From the NCBI GenBank assembly GCA_905182375.1, contig CAJJBF010000005.1, positions 62,001 through 126,000 on the forward strand: 64,000 nt of DNA, read 5' to 3'. Below the pieces are notes generated by a model that saw only the letters and a list, made by a program, of their open reading frames with translations, was not told where the DNA came from and searched no databases. The position numbers and the translations under genes are program-made. The DNA is from Flammeovirgaceae bacterium UBA4465. Lineage in GTDB: Bacteria; Bacteroidota; Bacteroidia; Cytophagales; Cyclobacteriaceae. Below are positions 49,977 through 63,543 of this stretch, piece after piece; position 1 is the stretch's first letter, and each line of letters starts with the position of its first letter.

Positions 49977-51061
49977 AGGTTCAAATTAATTTCAAAAGGT
50001 AGTTCATCCAAATCGTTTTCAGTATAAGTCATTTTCAAGTTCGTCAAAGAGGTTTTAGACAGCAAAATTATTATGATAGAGGGCTCCTGTTCCCAGACCT
50101 TGATGAGATAAATTCGGATACTGAGCGACAAACTGGGTAATCGCATTGAGCCCTATATTTGATTCCAAAGCTGAAGTTACCCACCAGCCAATATTGCGAT
50201 CTTCAGCCCAATTGATCCATTGATTGGATTCCATAAATCCGCCCAAAAGGCTGGGCTTTAGGATGATATAAGCTGGCTTGATGCTATCTAATAACGCCTT
50301 TTTTTCCACATCTTGTTCAATGCCAATGAGTTCTTCATCCAGTGCAATGGGAATTTTACTCGATTGACAAAGCTCATTCATGGCTTCCCACTGACCTTTT
50401 TGAATCGGTTGTTCGATGGAATGAATATTAAACTCACTCAACTGATTTAATTTATCCAATGCCTTTCCTGCGACTCAAAAGCACCTTTAACATCTAATCG
50501 AATGATTATTTTAGATGAAATTTTTCTTAAATAGGACACTAACTTCAGTTCTTTTCCAAAATCTAAAGCCCCTATTTTTAACTTGACACAATCAAAACCT
50601 AAGGCTACTTTTTCCTCAATTTGATCTCGCATGAAGATTTCATCACCCATCCAAACCAAACCATTAGTTTTAATTTGCATTTTATTTTGAAGAAAGGGTG
50701 AGGTAAACCATTGTCTCATACCTTGATGCATCAAATCTAAAAAGGCCATCTCCAATCCCATTCTGATGGCAGGAAACTGAAAAGCGAGTATTTTAGCCAA
50801 AGCATAAACCTCCGAAACGGAGGTGGGCGTTTTGTGATCGGCTATTTCACTCACTAACTCTCTCAGTCTTTGAGGAATTTCATCGATAGGATCAGCAGAC
50901 AAACCATTTAGGGGCGCTACCTCTCCTATACCAGATACACCTAAACTGCTGGTATCACAAACTCGTAAAAACCAAACTTCCCTAGTTTTCATGGTTCCAC
51001 GACTTGTACCCGCAATAAATTTAAAATTTAAAGTATAGGGTTTATATTCGAGTCGCAACAT
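49973..51061 (-). pseudogene. menC: o-Succinylbenzoate synthase (MenC) with two frameshifts
   Basis: MenC dehydrates SHCHC to o-succinylbenzoate in menaquinone synthesis (enolase superfamily). The N-terminal frame has YKPYTLNFKFIAGTSRGTMK, the Lys pair CVKLKIG and IIRLDVKGAF, where the usual Asn after DV is Lys. A frameshift near 50460 moves to LDKLNQLSEFNIHSIEQPI, IALDEELIG and ILKPSLLGGF. A second near 50060 moves from YHNNF to a tail ending NLNL and TGA at 49973-49975, inside the creatininase start. Menaquinone is normally essential in aerobic Bacteroidota, so read errors are as likely as true decay. Confidence 0.7.
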
Positions 51062-51068
51062 AATTCAA

Positions 51069-52299
51069 ATGGACATTAAAGAAATTCATCCTAAAAATTT
51101 TGATTATCAATTACCCAAGAAGTCTATCGCTCAAGCGCCCTTGGAGGTTCGATCCAATTCAAAATTACTACATTATCGAAAGGGAAGCCTAGCCCATCAT
51201 CAGTTTTCTGCCCTTCCTGAATTGATAAAAACCAAGTCTTTGATCATTTTTAATGATACCAAGGTGATTCCTGCCCGAATGATTTTCCATAAAGCTTCGG
51301 GTGCTCGCATTGAAATTTTCTTGCTTGAACCCTCAGCGCCTACGGTAATCATGGAAGAAATCATGTCTTCGAAAGGTAGTTGTACCTGGATATGCCTGAT
51401 TGGCAATGCCAAAAAATGGATCAATGATGCTGTTTTAAGCATCACCGTTGATCAGATCCAATTAACTGCCACAAGAATGTCTCAAGATACCGTTCTGTTC
51501 AATTGGTCGCCTCAAAAGACTTGGTCTGAACTCCTTTTAGCATTGGGTAGAGTGCCACTTCCTCCTTATATATCAAGAGCGCCCGTCAAGCGCCGATCAG
51601 AACCGCTATCAAACCGTTTATTCCAAGCTTGAAGGTGCCGTTGCGGCACCCACCGCCGGACTGCATTTTACCAAAGAGGTACTCGATGAGTTGCGAAACA
51701 AGCACCAACTTGATTACCTGACACTGCATGTATCCGCAGGTACCTTTCAGCCCATAAAAACGAATGCAGAGGAGCATCATATGCACCGCGAACAACTTCG
51801 CATTACCAGAAGCAATCTCATCCATTTGCTTGAAAATGAATCGGTCATTGCCGTAGGCACTACAAGCCTGAGAAGTTTAGAATCTCTTTATTGGTACGGT
51901 GTCAAATTGATGAATGGGGATCCTGATTTTTTCATATCTAAACTATATCCTTACCAAAATCACAAATCATTACCTGACAAAAAAACTGCCCTCACTGCCG
52001 TGCTCGAATATTTGGACAGCCGCTCAATGAGCGCGGTCATTGGTCACACAGAAATTTTTATATTCCCCGGCTATAAATTCAAAATAGTCAATAAAATGAT
52101 TACCAATTTTCATATGCCTGGAACGACGTTAGTCATGCTAATTGCTGCGTTCTGTGGCCCCAATTGGGAAAAAATTTACGAGGAAGCCCTAAAGCACGAC
52201 TATAGATTTTTAAGCTACGGCGATAGTTCCTATCTTGAACCAGATTTAAAAAAATCTTACTCCTCAGATCATACGATAACAAAAAATAAAATCATTTGA
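51069..52299 (+). pseudogene. queA: S-adenosylmethionine:tRNA ribosyltransferase-isomerase (QueA), frameshifted
   Basis: QueA transfers the ribosyl part of SAM to preQ1-tRNA, giving epoxyqueuosine. The first frame covers ~185 residues (FDYQLPKKSIAQAPLEVRS, IIFNDTKVIPARM, GRVPLPPYISRAPVK). An extra C near 51590 breaks it; the correct frame then reads DQNRYQTVYSKLEGAVAAP, TAGLHFT, LHVSAGTFQPI and VGTTSLRSLE to a normal end. One base explains everything, giving ~409 residues. It is divergent from menC by seven bases. The following lipoprotein gene starts in its stop codon (TTGA). Confidence 0.85.
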
Positions 52300-53225: not shown

Positions 53226-54918
53226 TCAAGATCCCTCGTAGGTATGCGTCTTTAAATCATCCTCTTTAATGATTCTTCTCAATACCTTACCCACATTAGA
53301 TTTAGGCAGTTCAGAGATAAACGAAACATGACGAGGACATTTATAGCCTGTTAACTTTTCCTTACAATAGGCAATGATCTCAGCCTCGTTTAAGGTTTCA
53401 TCCTTTTTGACAACAACCGCTTTCACAGCTTCTGTTGATTTAGGATCGGGCACACCGATCACTCCTACTTCCAGTACCTTGGGATGAGATGAAATGACAT
53501 TTTCAATCTCATTGGGATAAACATTGAATCCCGATACAAGGATCATTTCTTTTTTCCGATCTACAATTTTAAAAAAACCTTCCTCATCCATTATAGCTAC
53601 ATCACCTGTTTTAAACCAACCCTCTTGCATCACATTATCTGTTTCTTCTGGTCGGTTGTAATATCCCTGCATTACTTGCGGACCTTTGGCGCAGAGTTCT
53701 CCTGGATCACCCACAGCCACCTCCACAAAGTCATCATCAAAGTTCTTTATTTCCGTATTGGAAATAGGTAGTCCAATGGTACCCATTTTATGCCTTCCAT
53801 CTAGTGGATTAATCGTAAGCACGGGTGAGGTCTCCGTAAGACCATAGCCTTCTGCCAATGGCGTTCCTGTTACTTCAAGCCATTTTTCAGCGACTGAATT
53901 TTGAACCGCCATACCCCCACCAAAACCAAAACGAAGCTTACTGAAGTCACAATTTTTGAATTCAGGATGATTCAATAATCCATTAAAAAGCGTATTTACA
54001 CCACTCAATATGGTAAATTTATGTTTCCTTAGTTCCTTTACAAAACCATCCATATCTCGGGGATTGGTAATTAAAATATTTTGGGACCCCGAGCTCACCG
54101 AGCCGAGTACATTGGCGACCAAAGCAAAAATATGATAAATAGGGAGTGCGGTAATATAAACCTCAGCTCCTTCTTTCAAACCTCCACTTTTCATCCAGGT
54201 ATTTACTTGTAATAAATTGGCAACTAAATTACCATGAGAAAGCATTGCACCTTTGGAAACCCCCGTGGTACCTCCCGTATATTGAAGAAAAGCTAAATCC
54301 AGAATTTGAAGGTAGCTGGACAAAATCATGATTGGCTCCTGATTTAAGGGCTTTCATCAAAGCGGTAGCCTTTGGAAGGCTAAACGAAGGAACCATTTTT
54401 CTTACATATTTGACAGCAAAGTTGATCAGACTCCCTTTTATCCCTCCGATCATATCTCCAATGTGCGTAACCAATACATGTTTCAACTTAGTTTCAGACA
54501 AAATACCTTCTAGAATACTTGCGAAATTGGCTAAAACAATAATTACTTTCGCATCTGCGTCATTGAGCTGGTGTTTTAACTCACTTGACGTATAAAGTGG
54601 ATTTACATTTACTACCGTCATTCCTGCCCGTAAAGCTCCAAAGAGCACTACAGGATATTGAAGTAAATTGGGCATTTGAATCGCTACTTTATCCCCTCGA
54701 TTCAATCCTAAGTCATGAATCAAATAAGCAGCAAAACTATCTGAAGCTGTTTTTAACTCGTTAAAAGTCATTACTTTACCCATATTTTCAAAGGCCGGAT
54801 AGTTACCGAACTTTTTAAAACTATCATTCAAAAGTTCGGCTAAGCTTTCATATTCAGCACTTTCAATTTGTTGTGGAACATCTTTAGGGTAATGTGCAAA
54901 CCATGGAGCGTTTTTCAT
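53226..54918 (-). pseudogene. fadD: Long-chain fatty acid-CoA ligase, frameshifted
   Basis: Two frames on the minus strand form one ~563-residue FadD-type ligase, the same length as E. coli FadD, which activates fatty acids with ATP and CoA. The N-terminal part begins KNAPWFAHYPKDVPQQI. Near 54300 one extra G shifts the frame; the second frame gives LAFLQYTGGTTGVSKGAM (AMP-binding P-loop), GYGLTETSPVL and WFKTGDVAIMDEEGFF followed by VDRKKEMILVSGFNVYP. The break is at a GG pair, which suggests a homopolymer error. A candidate promoter lies upstream at 54958-54987. Confidence 0.85.
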
Positions 54919-58507: not shown

Positions 58508-60037
58508 TCATTTATCAATTTTCTCAACTGTTTCTATTGTGTTCATCTTTGGAGGAGACACTTTCGAAACTATAAATCCAAAGATCATAGCCATTAAAAA
58601 AGAGGGTGCTAGTACATCTAGCTCTACAAAATAATCACCTACGCCTTCCATATTTGATACAACAAACTTGAAAAAAATAATAGAAAAAAATCCCGTAATC
58701 ATAGAAGCAATAGCTCCTTTTTCAGAAAATCCTTTCCAAAATAATGATAAAATAATTACCGGACAGAAAGTGGCTGCAATACCGGACCATCCGAAAATCA
58801 TGATCCAAAAAATCTTCCTATCAGGATACAAATAGTACAATAAAATTGCAATTCCAAGTGCCATTAGTGCCATTCCAATGGTAACTAGTCTTGAAACTTT
58901 TGTCAAGTCTTGATCTTTTAAATCAGGTCTAAATATTTTTTGATAAAAATCTCTAGTAATTGCACTAGAGGCAAGAATAAGAAGAGAATCAATGGTTGAC
59001 ATAATTGCTGAAAGTACAATGGCAATAAAGATAGCAACTAAAATTGTTGGCAAGAATTCATTCGTTACCAAACTCAAAACATTTTCTCCTCCTGTCCCTA
59101 ATATAACTTCGGGATCTTGACCTTTTTGTGTAAAATAAATTCGAGCAAGAATACCAATCGTGACGGCTGCAGCATCAGTAAATAATGTGAAAAGTAAAGC
59201 AACCCATTTACCTTTATCAATTTCTTTTTCGCTTTTAATAGACATGAAGCGAACATACACTTGTGGTGAGCCTAAAAAACCCAATCCGATCATTGAGAAA
59301 CCTAAAATCGTAAATAAATTAAGCCAGCCATTATCGCTTCTCCCCAGTACTTGTGTTAAGGTGGGATCAATAGCGTTAAGCCCTGCAGTAATTCCCGCTC
59401 CATGATCCATGGAAAACCATACAACAATTGGCAATAAAACTAATCCAAAAAACATCAAAATACCTTGAAACATATCAGACCAAACTGCAGCTACGAATCC
59501 ACCTATAAAAATATAGATTAAGACAATAAAAAATCCAATTATCGCACCCACTCGATAGTCAATATTAAGCATTGATTCAAAGGCAATTCCAGTAACATCC
59601 ATTTGGGAAGCGACATATATAATCACAAATATGACGAGTGCCGAAGCAGCTACAATTCGTAGAGTATTTGTAGATGATTTAAAATGTGCCTCAAGGTAGT
59701 CTGGTATGGTAATCGCATTATATTGATCAGATAATTTTTTGAATCGCTTTGCCATGAATTGCCAAGAAACAAAAACTCCAAGAAGTTCTCCCAAAACGAC
59801 CCAATAGCCTGAATATCCAGCTATTGCACCCATACCTGTAAGACCGATGAGTAACCAACCTGATTCACCGGTGGCCCTTGCAGAAAAAGCAACTGCCAAA
59901 AAACCCATATTTTTTCCACCGACATAATAATCACTCATGCCTTTGATTCTCCTAGAGGCTAGGATTCCAATGAAAAATAATATGCCAACGTAAAAAGTGA
60001 GAACAACTAATTTGATTACTAATTCTGGATCGTTCAT
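58508..60037 (-). CDS. Sodium:solute symporter, PutP-like
   Basis: A 509-residue SSS-family Na+-coupled transporter with about 13 transmembrane helices. SDYYVGGKNMGFLAVAFSA and RATGESGWLLIGLTG cover helix 1 and the first binding site; IAIVLSAIMSTIDSLLILAS is the helix-8 Na+-site motif. It resembles proline/amino-acid carriers more than sugar carriers, but the substrate is not proven. It diverges from the cysteine dioxygenase gene, so uptake of an amino acid or export/uptake of hypotaurine or taurine is a reasonable guess from context. Confidence 0.9.
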   Translation of the reverse strand: MNDPELVIKLVVLTFYVGILFFIGILASRRIKGMSDYYVGGKNMGFLAVAFSARATGESGWLLIGLTGMGAIAGYSGYWVVLGELLGVFVSWQFMAKRFKKLSDQYNAITIPDYLEAHFKSSTNTLRIVAASALVIFVIIYVASQMDVTGIAFESMLNIDYRVGAIIGFFIVLIYIFIGGFVAAVWSDMFQGILMFFGLVLLPIVVWFSMDHGAGITAGLNAIDPTLTQVLGRSDNGWLNLFTILGFSMIGLGFLGSPQVYVRFMSIKSEKEIDKGKWVALLFTLFTDAAAVTIGILARIYFTQKGQDPEVILGTGGENVLSLVTNEFLPTILVAIFIAIVLSAIMSTIDSLLILASSAITRDFYQKIFRPDLKDQDLTKVSRLVTIGMALMALGIAILLYYLYPDRKIFWIMIFGWSGIAATFCPVIILSLFWKGFSEKGAIASMITGFFSIIFFKFVVSNMEGVGDYFVELDVLAPSFLMAMIFGFIVSKVSPPKMNTIETVEKIDK

Positions 60038-60163
60038 AATATATAAATATTATTTGATATCTCAATTAATTTCAGATGGGTCTCTCAAATAAAAAGTACC
60101 CATTCTCCAATTATGCCCAAAATGCTTAAAAAATCGACAAAAATTACTCTTTTTCGTAAATAC

Positions 60164-60195
60164 TTGAAAAAATTGATCGGAGATTGCTAACTTTG
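60164..60195 (+). promoter_or_regulatory. Bacteroidota-type promoter of the CDO-decarboxylase operon
   Basis: TTG at 60164-60166 and TAACTTTG at 60188-60195 match the -33 and TAnnTTTG elements with a 21-base spacer. Transcription would begin near 60202, leaving a leader of about 95 bases before the dioxygenase gene. Confidence 0.55.
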
Positions 60196-60295
60196 AATTA
60201 TTAAATTACTCTACAATCTTTACTAAAAAATATTAGTTAGATTTGAAAACTCACCTTGGATCTGCTCATTGAATGAATAGAAAAAAAGTGAAAAA

Positions 60296-60847
60296 ATGAT
60301 AAAGGCTATCGGAAATAAGCAGAAGAAAATTCATTCATTAAACTTATTAATTAGTGCTCTTAAAAATGAGCAAAGTACGAAGTACCATGATATTTTACAT
60401 TCAATGGAAATACCAAAGAGTGCTTTTGAAATTTTTTGTTCTTGGTCTGAATCAACCTATACGCGGAATTGTATTTTTGAAAATGAACGATTTGAGCTGA
60501 TCCTAATTTGTTGGCAATCAAGTCAAAAAACCCCTATTCACGATCATGGAGGTGAGGAATGTTGGGTAAAATTCATAGATGGTGAATTTAAAGAAGCAAT
60601 TTTTAAATCGAATGAAGTCAGTGAAGTCAATATACAAAAATCGACCCTTTTTAAAGCAGGTGATATCTCCTACATGATTGATTTCATGGGTTGTCATCAA
60701 TTAAAAAACCTATCCAACCACCGAGCGCTCTCACTCCATTTATATGCAAAGCCTATTCGTAATTGTAACATTTATGATGAACAATCAAAGGAATTTGTGC
60801 CAAAGAAAATGAGTTATCATACAGTTTATAATAGTACGATCAGTTAA
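60296..60847 (+). CDS. Cysteine dioxygenase, eukaryote-like
   Basis: A 183-residue cupin iron enzyme that oxidises L-cysteine to cysteine sulfinate with O2. The iron ligands are His82, His84 (TPIHDHGGEECW) and His133 (GCHQL). Arg57 in TYTRN binds the cysteine carboxylate and Tyr55 adjoins it, as in mammalian CDO (Tyr58, Arg60). Cys89 and Tyr150 (LSLHLYAKP) occupy the positions of the mammalian Cys93-Tyr157 crosslink, and His148 matches His155. Most bacterial CDOs have Gly instead of that Cys. The decarboxylase gene follows by 15 bases. Arg57 argues against a 3-mercaptopropionate dioxygenase. Confidence 0.92.
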   Translation: MIKAIGNKQKKIHSLNLLISALKNEQSTKYHDILHSMEIPKSAFEIFCSWSESTYTRNCIFENERFELILICWQSSQKTPIHDHGGEECWVKFIDGEFKEAIFKSNEVSEVNIQKSTLFKAGDISYMIDFMGCHQLKNLSNHRALSLHLYAKPIRNCNIYDEQSKEFVPKKMSYHTVYNSTIS

Positions 60848-60862
60848 TTACAATAAAATTAT

Positions 60863-62261
60863 ATGCCCAAAATAAATAGTGATTTAGTTCTTTTTAATGA
60901 ACTGGTTGAAGTATTGTTAAATGAAGAACATAAGTATCCAGTAGCCGAATCGAATAGAAGCTGATAAACTTTACGATACGCTAGACCTTTCGCTAAACCC
61001 TACTCCCATTGTTGATAATAAATTAAAAAATCTACTCAAAGAAGTAGTAATTGCTACGCCCAAAACAGCAACAAAATTATTCTTTAATCAACTTTTTGGA
61101 GGAAGACAAAGTAAGGCTATTTTGGGTGATTTACTTGCAGTAATGCTTAATAATAGCATGTATACCTACAAGGTTGCCGGTCCTCAAGTTGGTATTGAAC
61201 AAGAAATCATAAGAAAATCTTGTGAGATGATCGGTTATGGCTCTCAAAGTAATGGTACCTTTCCAACTGGGGGTTCGATGAGCAATTATATGGCCTTAGT
61301 GATGGCTAGAGATACCAAAGATTCCCATTGTAGGGAAAAGGGTATGTCTAAACCAATGATTGTTTACACTTCACGAGAATCGCATTATTCAAATTCAAAA
61401 AATGCAAGCTTTGCAGGAATTGGCAAGAGCAACATTAGATATATTCATACTGATTCCAAAGGACAAATGCTCCCGAACCATTTGGAAGCACAAATTATTA
61501 AAGATCTCGATGAAGGTTTTGTTCCCACTTATGTAAATGCTACAGCAGGCACCACCGTTTTAGGAAGTTTTGATCCAATAGATAAAATTGCTGATATCAC
61601 GGAGAAATATAAAATTTGGCTCCATGTCGATGGTGCATATTGTGGAAGCGTCATTTTCAGCGATAAATTTAAATATCTTGTTGATGGAATAGAAAGATCA
61701 GATTCTTTCAGCTATAATGCGCACAAGATGTTAGGAACCCCTCTAACTTGTTCAGTCTTGTTAGTAAATGATAAAAAACATTTACACAACTCCTTCAGCA
61801 ATGATGCGGATTATCTTTACCAAACAGATGGTGACGATTTCAACTTAGGTAAAACTTCGTTCCAATGTGGAAGAAGGAATGATGCACTGAAATTCTGGAC
61901 ACTTTGGAAATCAATTGGGACTAATGGATTGAAACAAATTGTAGATCAACAATTTGAACTTGCAGATATTGCTCGAGCATATATTAAAAGCAATCCCGAT
62001 TATACGCTATATAGTTTTGATGATTCAATCTCAGTCTGTTTTAATTATCAAGGAATTGACCCAATGACACTTTGTACCGCCCTGTATGAACATCAAATTA
62101 CGGTCGTGGGTTTCGGGTCTTTTAATAATGATACATTTATTAGACTCATAACAATTAATACCAATAATAAAGAATATGATATTTTGAATTTCTTTAAAGT
62201 ACTTGAAGCCTACGTTCATAAAACTTCAAAAATAAAGAAGGAAGTTCTGGAGCAGGCATAA
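60863..62261 (+). CDS. PLP-dependent decarboxylase, probably cysteine sulfinate/glutamate type, with 5' frameshift
   Basis: A group II PLP decarboxylase of ~465 residues. The first 33 codons (MPKINSDLVLFNELVEVLLN) end at TGA 60962; near 60945-60960 the frame shifts to RIEADKLYDTLDLSL and TATKLFFNQLFGGRQSKA, continuing open to the end. Everything for catalysis lies after the break: LHVDGAYCGSV (PLP-binding Asp), SYNAHKMLGTPL (Schiff-base Lys) and QCGRRNDALKFWTLWKS, shared with animal cysteine-sulfinate decarboxylase. Position directly behind cysteine dioxygenase makes cysteine sulfinate the likely substrate and hypotaurine the product; aspartate or glutamate remain possible. One base change or read error explains the break. 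Confidence 0.85.
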
Positions 62262-62641: not shown

Positions 62642-63543
62642 TTATTTAAAAGATTGAGATGCTCCTCTTACTTCCATTTTCAATTGATAAATGGCCTTTG
62701 ATGCAGTGATGAAAAGGATGTCTCGATCAGGTCCACCGAAAGTCACATTGGCCGTCCAAGGTTCCTCAATTTTGATATGCGCTATTTTTTTACCTTTAGC
62801 ATCAAAAACAGAAATGCCGTCCCCTGTGAGGTAAACATTGCCTTGCTCATCAAGGGTCATCCCATCTGATCCCATCGCTACGAATCGCTTTTGGTTGGAT
62901 AAACTCCCATCGGCTTCTATTTGATAACTGTACGTCATTTGCCCATCTATATCGGCAACATATAACAAGGATCCATTGGGGGTGCCTATGATCCCATTGG
63001 GTTGCTCTAAACCTGTAGCTACTGTGCTTACTACACCTGTTGGTGATAAATAATAGACATTGTTAGAGGACAAATAAGACGCAGTATGTTGCCAATAAGG
63101 ACGTTGATAAAAAGGGTCTGTAAAATAAACACCTCCTTTGGGATCCACCCAGAGATCGTTGGGTCCGTTCAATCGCGTGCCTTGAGAGTCTTTTAAAAGG
63201 ACCTCGATATTTTTAGCACTATCAATTTTCCATAATTGACCCAATGCATCCGCACATGCATATAAGTTGTCCTCTCAGAATCAAAATACAAGCCATTGGA
63301 ACGACCCGATGGCGTTAAGAAAATTTCAAGTTCACCATCAACTGACCATTTGAGTATTTGATCATTGGGCTGATCGGTAAAATAAACATTACCCCGACTG
63401 TCGACAGCTGGGCCTTCGGTGAATTCAAAATGATCCGCAATTTTTATCAATTGAGCATCCTCTGCGACTATTGTAGGTGCTTGTGCAGCAATCTTTTGAG
63501 ACGTCACTGAAGACACCACAAATAATATGACTAAATATTTCAT
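62642..63543 (-). pseudogene. SMP-30/gluconolactonase-family protein, frameshifted
   Basis: Two minus-strand frames form one exported ~300-residue six-bladed propeller lactonase. The N-terminal frame has signal MKYLVILFVVSSVTSQKIAA and FEFTEGPAVDSRGNVYFTD; near 63244-63270 it shifts to EDNLYACADALGQLW, then LNGPNDLWVDPKGGVYFTD, LEQPNGIIGTPNGSLLYVAD and GMTLDEQGNVYL, which carry the metal-site Glu, Asn and Asp positions of SMP-30. It hydrolyses sugar lactones such as gluconolactone. One missing base restores the gene. It lies upstream-adjacent to a sulfatase gene on the same strand, as in polysaccharide-use loci. Confidence 0.75.

Follow-up and report, generated by a model that had tools for sequence, protein, structure and literature searches.

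A cysteine dioxygenase gene, a decarboxylase gene and a divergent symporter gene share one locus

The window analysed here is a 64,000-nt stretch of DNA from Flammeovirgaceae bacterium UBA4465 (GCA_905182375.1, contig CAJJBF010000005.1, positions 62,001-126,000 of the forward strand). It carries a gene for a cysteine dioxygenase (CDO) followed on the same strand by one for a group II PLP decarboxylase, with a sodium:solute symporter gene diverging from the pair. The features of the locus, in window coordinates, are as follows:

58508-60037, reverse strand: SSS-family sodium:solute symporter, 509 aa, divergent from the CDO-decarboxylase pair
60188-60195, forward strand: likely Bacteroidota-type -7 promoter box TAACTTTG (consensus TANNTTTG) of the CDO-CSAD transcript
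60232-60288, forward strand: conserved leader of about 57 nt, a candidate regulatory RNA, with CCTTGGATCTG at 60254-60264; covariance model R1, helices P2 and P3
60296-60847, forward strand: predicted cysteine dioxygenase, Arg type, with Cys93, 183 aa (Pfam, PDB match, residues)
60863-62261, forward strand: putative cysteine sulfinate decarboxylase (CSAD) gene, interrupted by a one-base insertion; 466-469 aa and intact in relatives
60948, forward strand: additional A causing the frameshift in the decarboxylase gene (window GAATCG, three relatives GATCG)
61095-61163, forward strand: decarboxylase substrate triad (F 61095-61097, S 61155-61157, Y 61161-61163)

The two enzymes are predicted to convert cysteine to hypotaurine

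The predicted product of 60296-60847, the sole CDO in the genome, is an Arg-type cysteine dioxygenase. It scored 81.3 bits against PF05995 (CDO_I), exceeding the cut-off of 23, and its best PDB matches were mammalian CDO1 (E = 6e-21). Y58, R60, H86, H88, H140, H155, Y157 and Cys93 are kept in all alignment rows with letters at those positions, the window included, and the set that marks the Arg type (His86, His88, His140, Arg60 and Tyr157) is complete in the window, metal ligands included, in agreement with a preliminary description of this DNA that had credited the enzyme with all its active-site residues. In mammalian CDO, Cys93 contributes to a Cys-Tyr cross-link (PMC10966181), and the CDO clade found here possesses this cysteine, which the Cys-Tyr cofactor of the mammalian enzyme requires.

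The decarboxylase gene opens with an ATG at 60863, 15 bases 3' of the CDO gene, and its product, a group II PLP decarboxylase, has the QCGRRNDALK motif and the PLP lysine, in NAHKM. Its best PDB matches were CSAD and GADL1 (E about 1e-72), with GAD next. The substrate triad reads F-S-Y, identical to that of human CSAD, in the window and in 80/80 loci (the best 80 of 526 relatives), whereas GADL1 and GAD, which share the fold family, carry Y-S-Y (GADL1) and S-N-F (GAD1) at the same three positions as read from the PDB-match alignments. These are the positions reported to separate CSAD from GAD (Agnello 2013). Selectivity between GAD and CSAD is set by three active-site positions (PMC8153620), and by analogy with the animal enzymes F-S-Y would make cysteine sulfinate the preferred substrate.

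Since the CDO active-site residues and the CSAD triad occur together with strict CDO pairing (74/80 loci), the animal-type route from cysteine through cysteine sulfinate to hypotaurine, as the preliminary description had read it, is well supported at the level of sequence. CDO would turn cysteine into cysteine sulfinate by oxidation, and from this product the F-S-Y decarboxylase would remove CO2 to give hypotaurine, the precursor of taurine; both steps are read from residues and synteny. The genome yielded no FMO-type hypotaurine oxidase, so hypotaurine is the safest product to name. Taurine as end product and a role as osmolyte or antioxidant, both put forward in the preliminary description, are conjectural.

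The decarboxylase gene, broken in the window, is whole in relatives

The preliminary description was right about the 15-base spacing and the QCGRRNDALK motif but missed that the decarboxylase is not a single open frame in the window. The frame from ATG 60863 ends after 33 codons and the body of the protein lies in another frame, with the ORF list giving only 61122-62261; the extra A at 60948 thus leaves no intact decarboxylase reading frame in the window. The same-genus genomes G003, G005, G007 and G008 have an intact decarboxylase of 466-469 aa in the same three-gene layout. We assessed frameshift density within the last 14 kb of the window, where menC-, queA-, fadD- and SMP30-like genes (50055-51061, 51069-52299, 53226-54918 and 62642-63543, respectively) each occupy two frames and are intact in same-genus relatives; the queA, fadD and SMP30-like splits are 1-2 base indels absent from the relatives. 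Since all four genes are split here but whole in the relatives, the window assembly carries many small indels. Given intact decarboxylases in the same genus and further split genes close by in the window, we infer that the one-base break is most likely a sequence error rather than decay.

It is unlikely, in our estimation, that the decarboxylase of this strain is a true pseudogene and that the route is being lost in it. The one-base insertion itself would fit such a loss, and loss does occur in the family, where CDO is down to likely remnants in L111/L113 and L145, but the queA, fadD and SMP30-like splits in the same 14 kb, intact in relatives, are the pattern of a poor assembly, and the end branch of the window row is very short (0.0088), with no sign of relaxed evolution.

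Aspartate as an alternative substrate

A different reading of the same gene is that it encodes mainly an aspartate 1-decarboxylase, which would take over from PanD the supply of beta-alanine to pantothenate synthesis, at least in the genus of the window. The genome of the window has panC and lacks panD, panD is missing in 5/5 module carriers of the genus (G000, G003, G005, G007 and G008) and present in same-genus G006, which is without the module, and human CSAD slowly decarboxylates aspartate (PMC8153620). On the other hand, the triad is the F-S-Y of CSAD and not the Y-S-Y of aspartate-preferring GADL1, the pairing with CDO is strict, and 42/53 module-bearing genomes keep panD. The absence of panD is also not tied to the module, because G001 (90% completeness) lacks both panD and the module gene. 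Against the PanP (aspartate 1-decarboxylase) profile TIGR03799 the decarboxylase scored 119.5 bits, below the cut-off of 606.1. We consider aspartate very improbable as the main substrate and favour cysteine sulfinate; a beta-alanine role in the genus of the window is possible, while beta-alanine supply as the general purpose of the module was rejected, given that most module genomes keep panD.

The symporter belongs to the SSS family and is distinct from PutP

The gene on the other strand had been described as a PutP-like divergent symporter, and its orientation, its extent (58508-60037) and its SSS family all hold. Like E. coli PutP, to which it is 30% identical, the protein has A53, A337, S340 and T341. 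In contrast, D55, M56, W244 and Y248 of PutP are missing from the window symporter and replaced in 47/47 of its relatives (D55, W244 and Y248 by G, I and F in all 47), and the score against TIGR02121 (PutP) was 328 bits, below the cut-off of 515.5. D55 is a key residue of PutP, and W244 and Y248 belong to its proline site. By its sub-cut-off score and its replaced key residues, the protein is not the sodium/proline symporter PutP. Sodium coupling is plausible, and the symporter would be part of the same unit as the two enzymes, with hypotaurine, taurine or a precursor as its plausible substrate.

The module recurs in mostly marine Bacteroidota and fits horizontal transfer

In 84,980 species genomes, a scan found 526 decarboxylase relatives, the best 80 of which (69-100% identity) were used as loci. 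All of these best 80 are from Bacteroidota (Flavobacteriaceae, Crocinitomicaceae, Saprospiraceae, Cryomorphaceae and Cyclobacteriaceae) and, with habitat judged by name, mostly marine. The survey of Bacteroidota neighbourhoods that the preliminary description had proposed does recover the arrangement: among the best 80 of 526, CDO lies directly 5' of the decarboxylase in 74/80 loci, and the divergent symporter, at 75-98% identity, is also present in 54/80. With the tandem in 74/80 loci, chance is far from explaining its layout. Beyond these genes, no neighbour is common to many of the loci, and no gene for a regulator accompanies the module. Two orthologous decarboxylases (L061 and L062, in G281 and G175; 58-62% identity) stand beside other genes, in genomes that gave no CDO match.

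In a maximum-likelihood tree, the five-member clade of the window (support 100/100) falls inside a supported, mostly Flavobacteriales group. Lacinutrix is nearest to it by path, but with its deeper branching unsettled the tree does not single out a donor. When CDO was sought in 27 other sampled genera of the window's family, 24 had no match, one had a homologue of 32% identity and two were marginal. As the clade nests in the Flavobacteriales group and most other genera of the family are without CDO, the sequences fit acquisition of the module by horizontal transfer. Taurine is abundant in the sea, where it is usually credited to animals and algae. The predicted cysteine route is widespread across marine Bacteroidota, in the form of a compact unit that includes a transporter, so they may produce taurine as well as consume it.

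A conserved leader precedes the CDO gene

A good promoter had been noted ahead of the gene pair. Sigma-70-like sites are at chance level in the region (15 versus 13.7 in shuffles), but a conserved Bacteroidota-type -7 box, TAACTTTG, does stand there. TANNTTTG was found at this position in 23/33 aligned loci versus 1% of shuffles, about 66 bases 5' of the core of the leader block. The full pattern TTTG-N17-21-TANNTTTG had one match in the window, elsewhere than this operon; the -7 half alone is conserved. The box is likely the promoter of the CDO-CSAD transcript, which would probably start about 100 nt 5' of CDO. On balance, the observations of the preliminary description are partly confirmed and its interpretation is partly supported.

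Between the box and CDO we found a conserved leader block with the consensus TTTAGTTGGATTTAGGGANTNACCTTGGATTTGTACATTAAATGAACAAAAAAAA; CCTTGGATTTG occurs with at most one mismatch in 37/74 upstream regions, versus about 0.15 expected from shuffles. Since the block is downstream of the -7 box, it should be transcribed and lie in the 5' UTR. The variable stretch between box and block tends to fold (mean z -1.54, s.e.m. 0.21), compared with -0.06 and 0.30 in flanking controls. Two helices in the block, P2 (96.5% standard pairs, weaker in the genus of the window) and P3 (91.4%), compete for the same bases and are mutually exclusive. The covariation is modest and concentrated in few pairs; it includes seven double changes from U-A to C-G at a single pair of P3, a number reached in 0/500 shuffles. 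Insertions of 1-2 bases in L088 and L141 fall in the predicted loop and leave the arms of P3 intact. Taken together, sequence comparison supports, though it does not prove, an RNA structure in the leader.

The leader of the window scored 66.6 bits against covariance model R1 (E = 2e-12), and across the window and 85 loci the model gave 46 matches at E < 0.01, all 5' of this operon. Over 395 genomes of the phylum the sole match at E 0.001 was the window's own leader, in a search with strict filters that scored few candidates per genome; divergent leaders escape it, because G087, G145 and G367 carry the tandem and yet were missed. Rfam 15 covariance models had no match at the element in L075, L095, L079 and L003 at E up to 5. 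The leader is kept 5' of CSAD in L145 (7702-8001) and L111 (854-1172)/L113 although CDO is reduced there to likely remnants.

Instead of a regulatory RNA, the block could be a DNA operator bound by a regulator whose gene lies elsewhere, or a short ORF that is translated, and we put this reading close to, but short of, an even chance. The 3' part of the leader reads as a near-palindrome, TTTGTACAT-N-ATGAACAAA; many loci also offer a possible short ORF running TTGGATTTGTACATT...TGA, and the covariation comes mainly from one pair. However, the double changes at that pair are not reproduced by shuffling, the loop insertions would be badly tolerated by an operator or ORF of fixed spacing, the element lies 3' of the -7 box, and the module moves without a regulator gene. 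A leader peptide was rejected: the upstream start is not conserved, there is no conserved Cys codon, and the loop insertions break the frame. We regard the block as a regulatory leader specific to this module, with RNA somewhat likelier than an operator, and on the CDO-CSAD transcript it would most likely act in cis. A more specific proposal, which we rate as speculative and rather unlikely, is that it represents a new operon-specific class of riboswitch whose exclusive helices sense cysteine, hypotaurine or taurine and thereby switch the CDO-CSAD operon. If true, the module would regulate itself, which would account for its moving between families without a regulator gene. Literature searches on taurine riboswitches and on Polaribacter CDO found nothing relevant. 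What is new here is the previously undescribed leader, a candidate module-specific regulatory RNA that probably controls the operon; shared among loci, it offers a candidate, open to direct testing, for an RNA regulator linked to cysteine or hypotaurine.

Comparison with known systems

We consider it highly probable that the locus as a whole represents a transferred hypotaurine module with a symporter and a cis-regulating leader, its decarboxylase break being a sequence error. Its chemistry is known and is backed here by better evidence than the preliminary description had; the genes keep a conserved arrangement, and the candidate regulatory element is the new part. The prokaryotic CDO-CSAD route has been known since 2013, when Agnello et al. 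(ACS Chem Biol 8:2264) reportedly described such a taurine pathway in Synechococcus sp. PCC 7335. In that pathway CDO is reportedly followed by a decarboxylase with the CSAD triad, as in the window, whereas in the window the genes form a tight marine Bacteroidota module to which an SSS symporter, divergently oriented, and a conserved leader also belong. The remark in the preliminary description that the route is rarely described in bacteria is half right: two later papers, which cite Agnello 2013, cover the prokaryotic pathway and a purified Synechococcus CSAD (PMC8153620, PMC12585060). Taurine makers that use the cysteine route include marine cyanobacteria and marine flavobacteria (PMC12585060). 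Animal CDO1 and CSAD have the same Cys93, R60, Y157 and F-S-Y as the window enzymes but are encoded by separate genes, whereas the bacterial proteins are shorter and share one operon.

Two more group II PLP decarboxylases, without the CSAD triad, are encoded at G000:C9:342967-344016 and G000:C9:387000-387902, and the first of these adjoins another SSS symporter.
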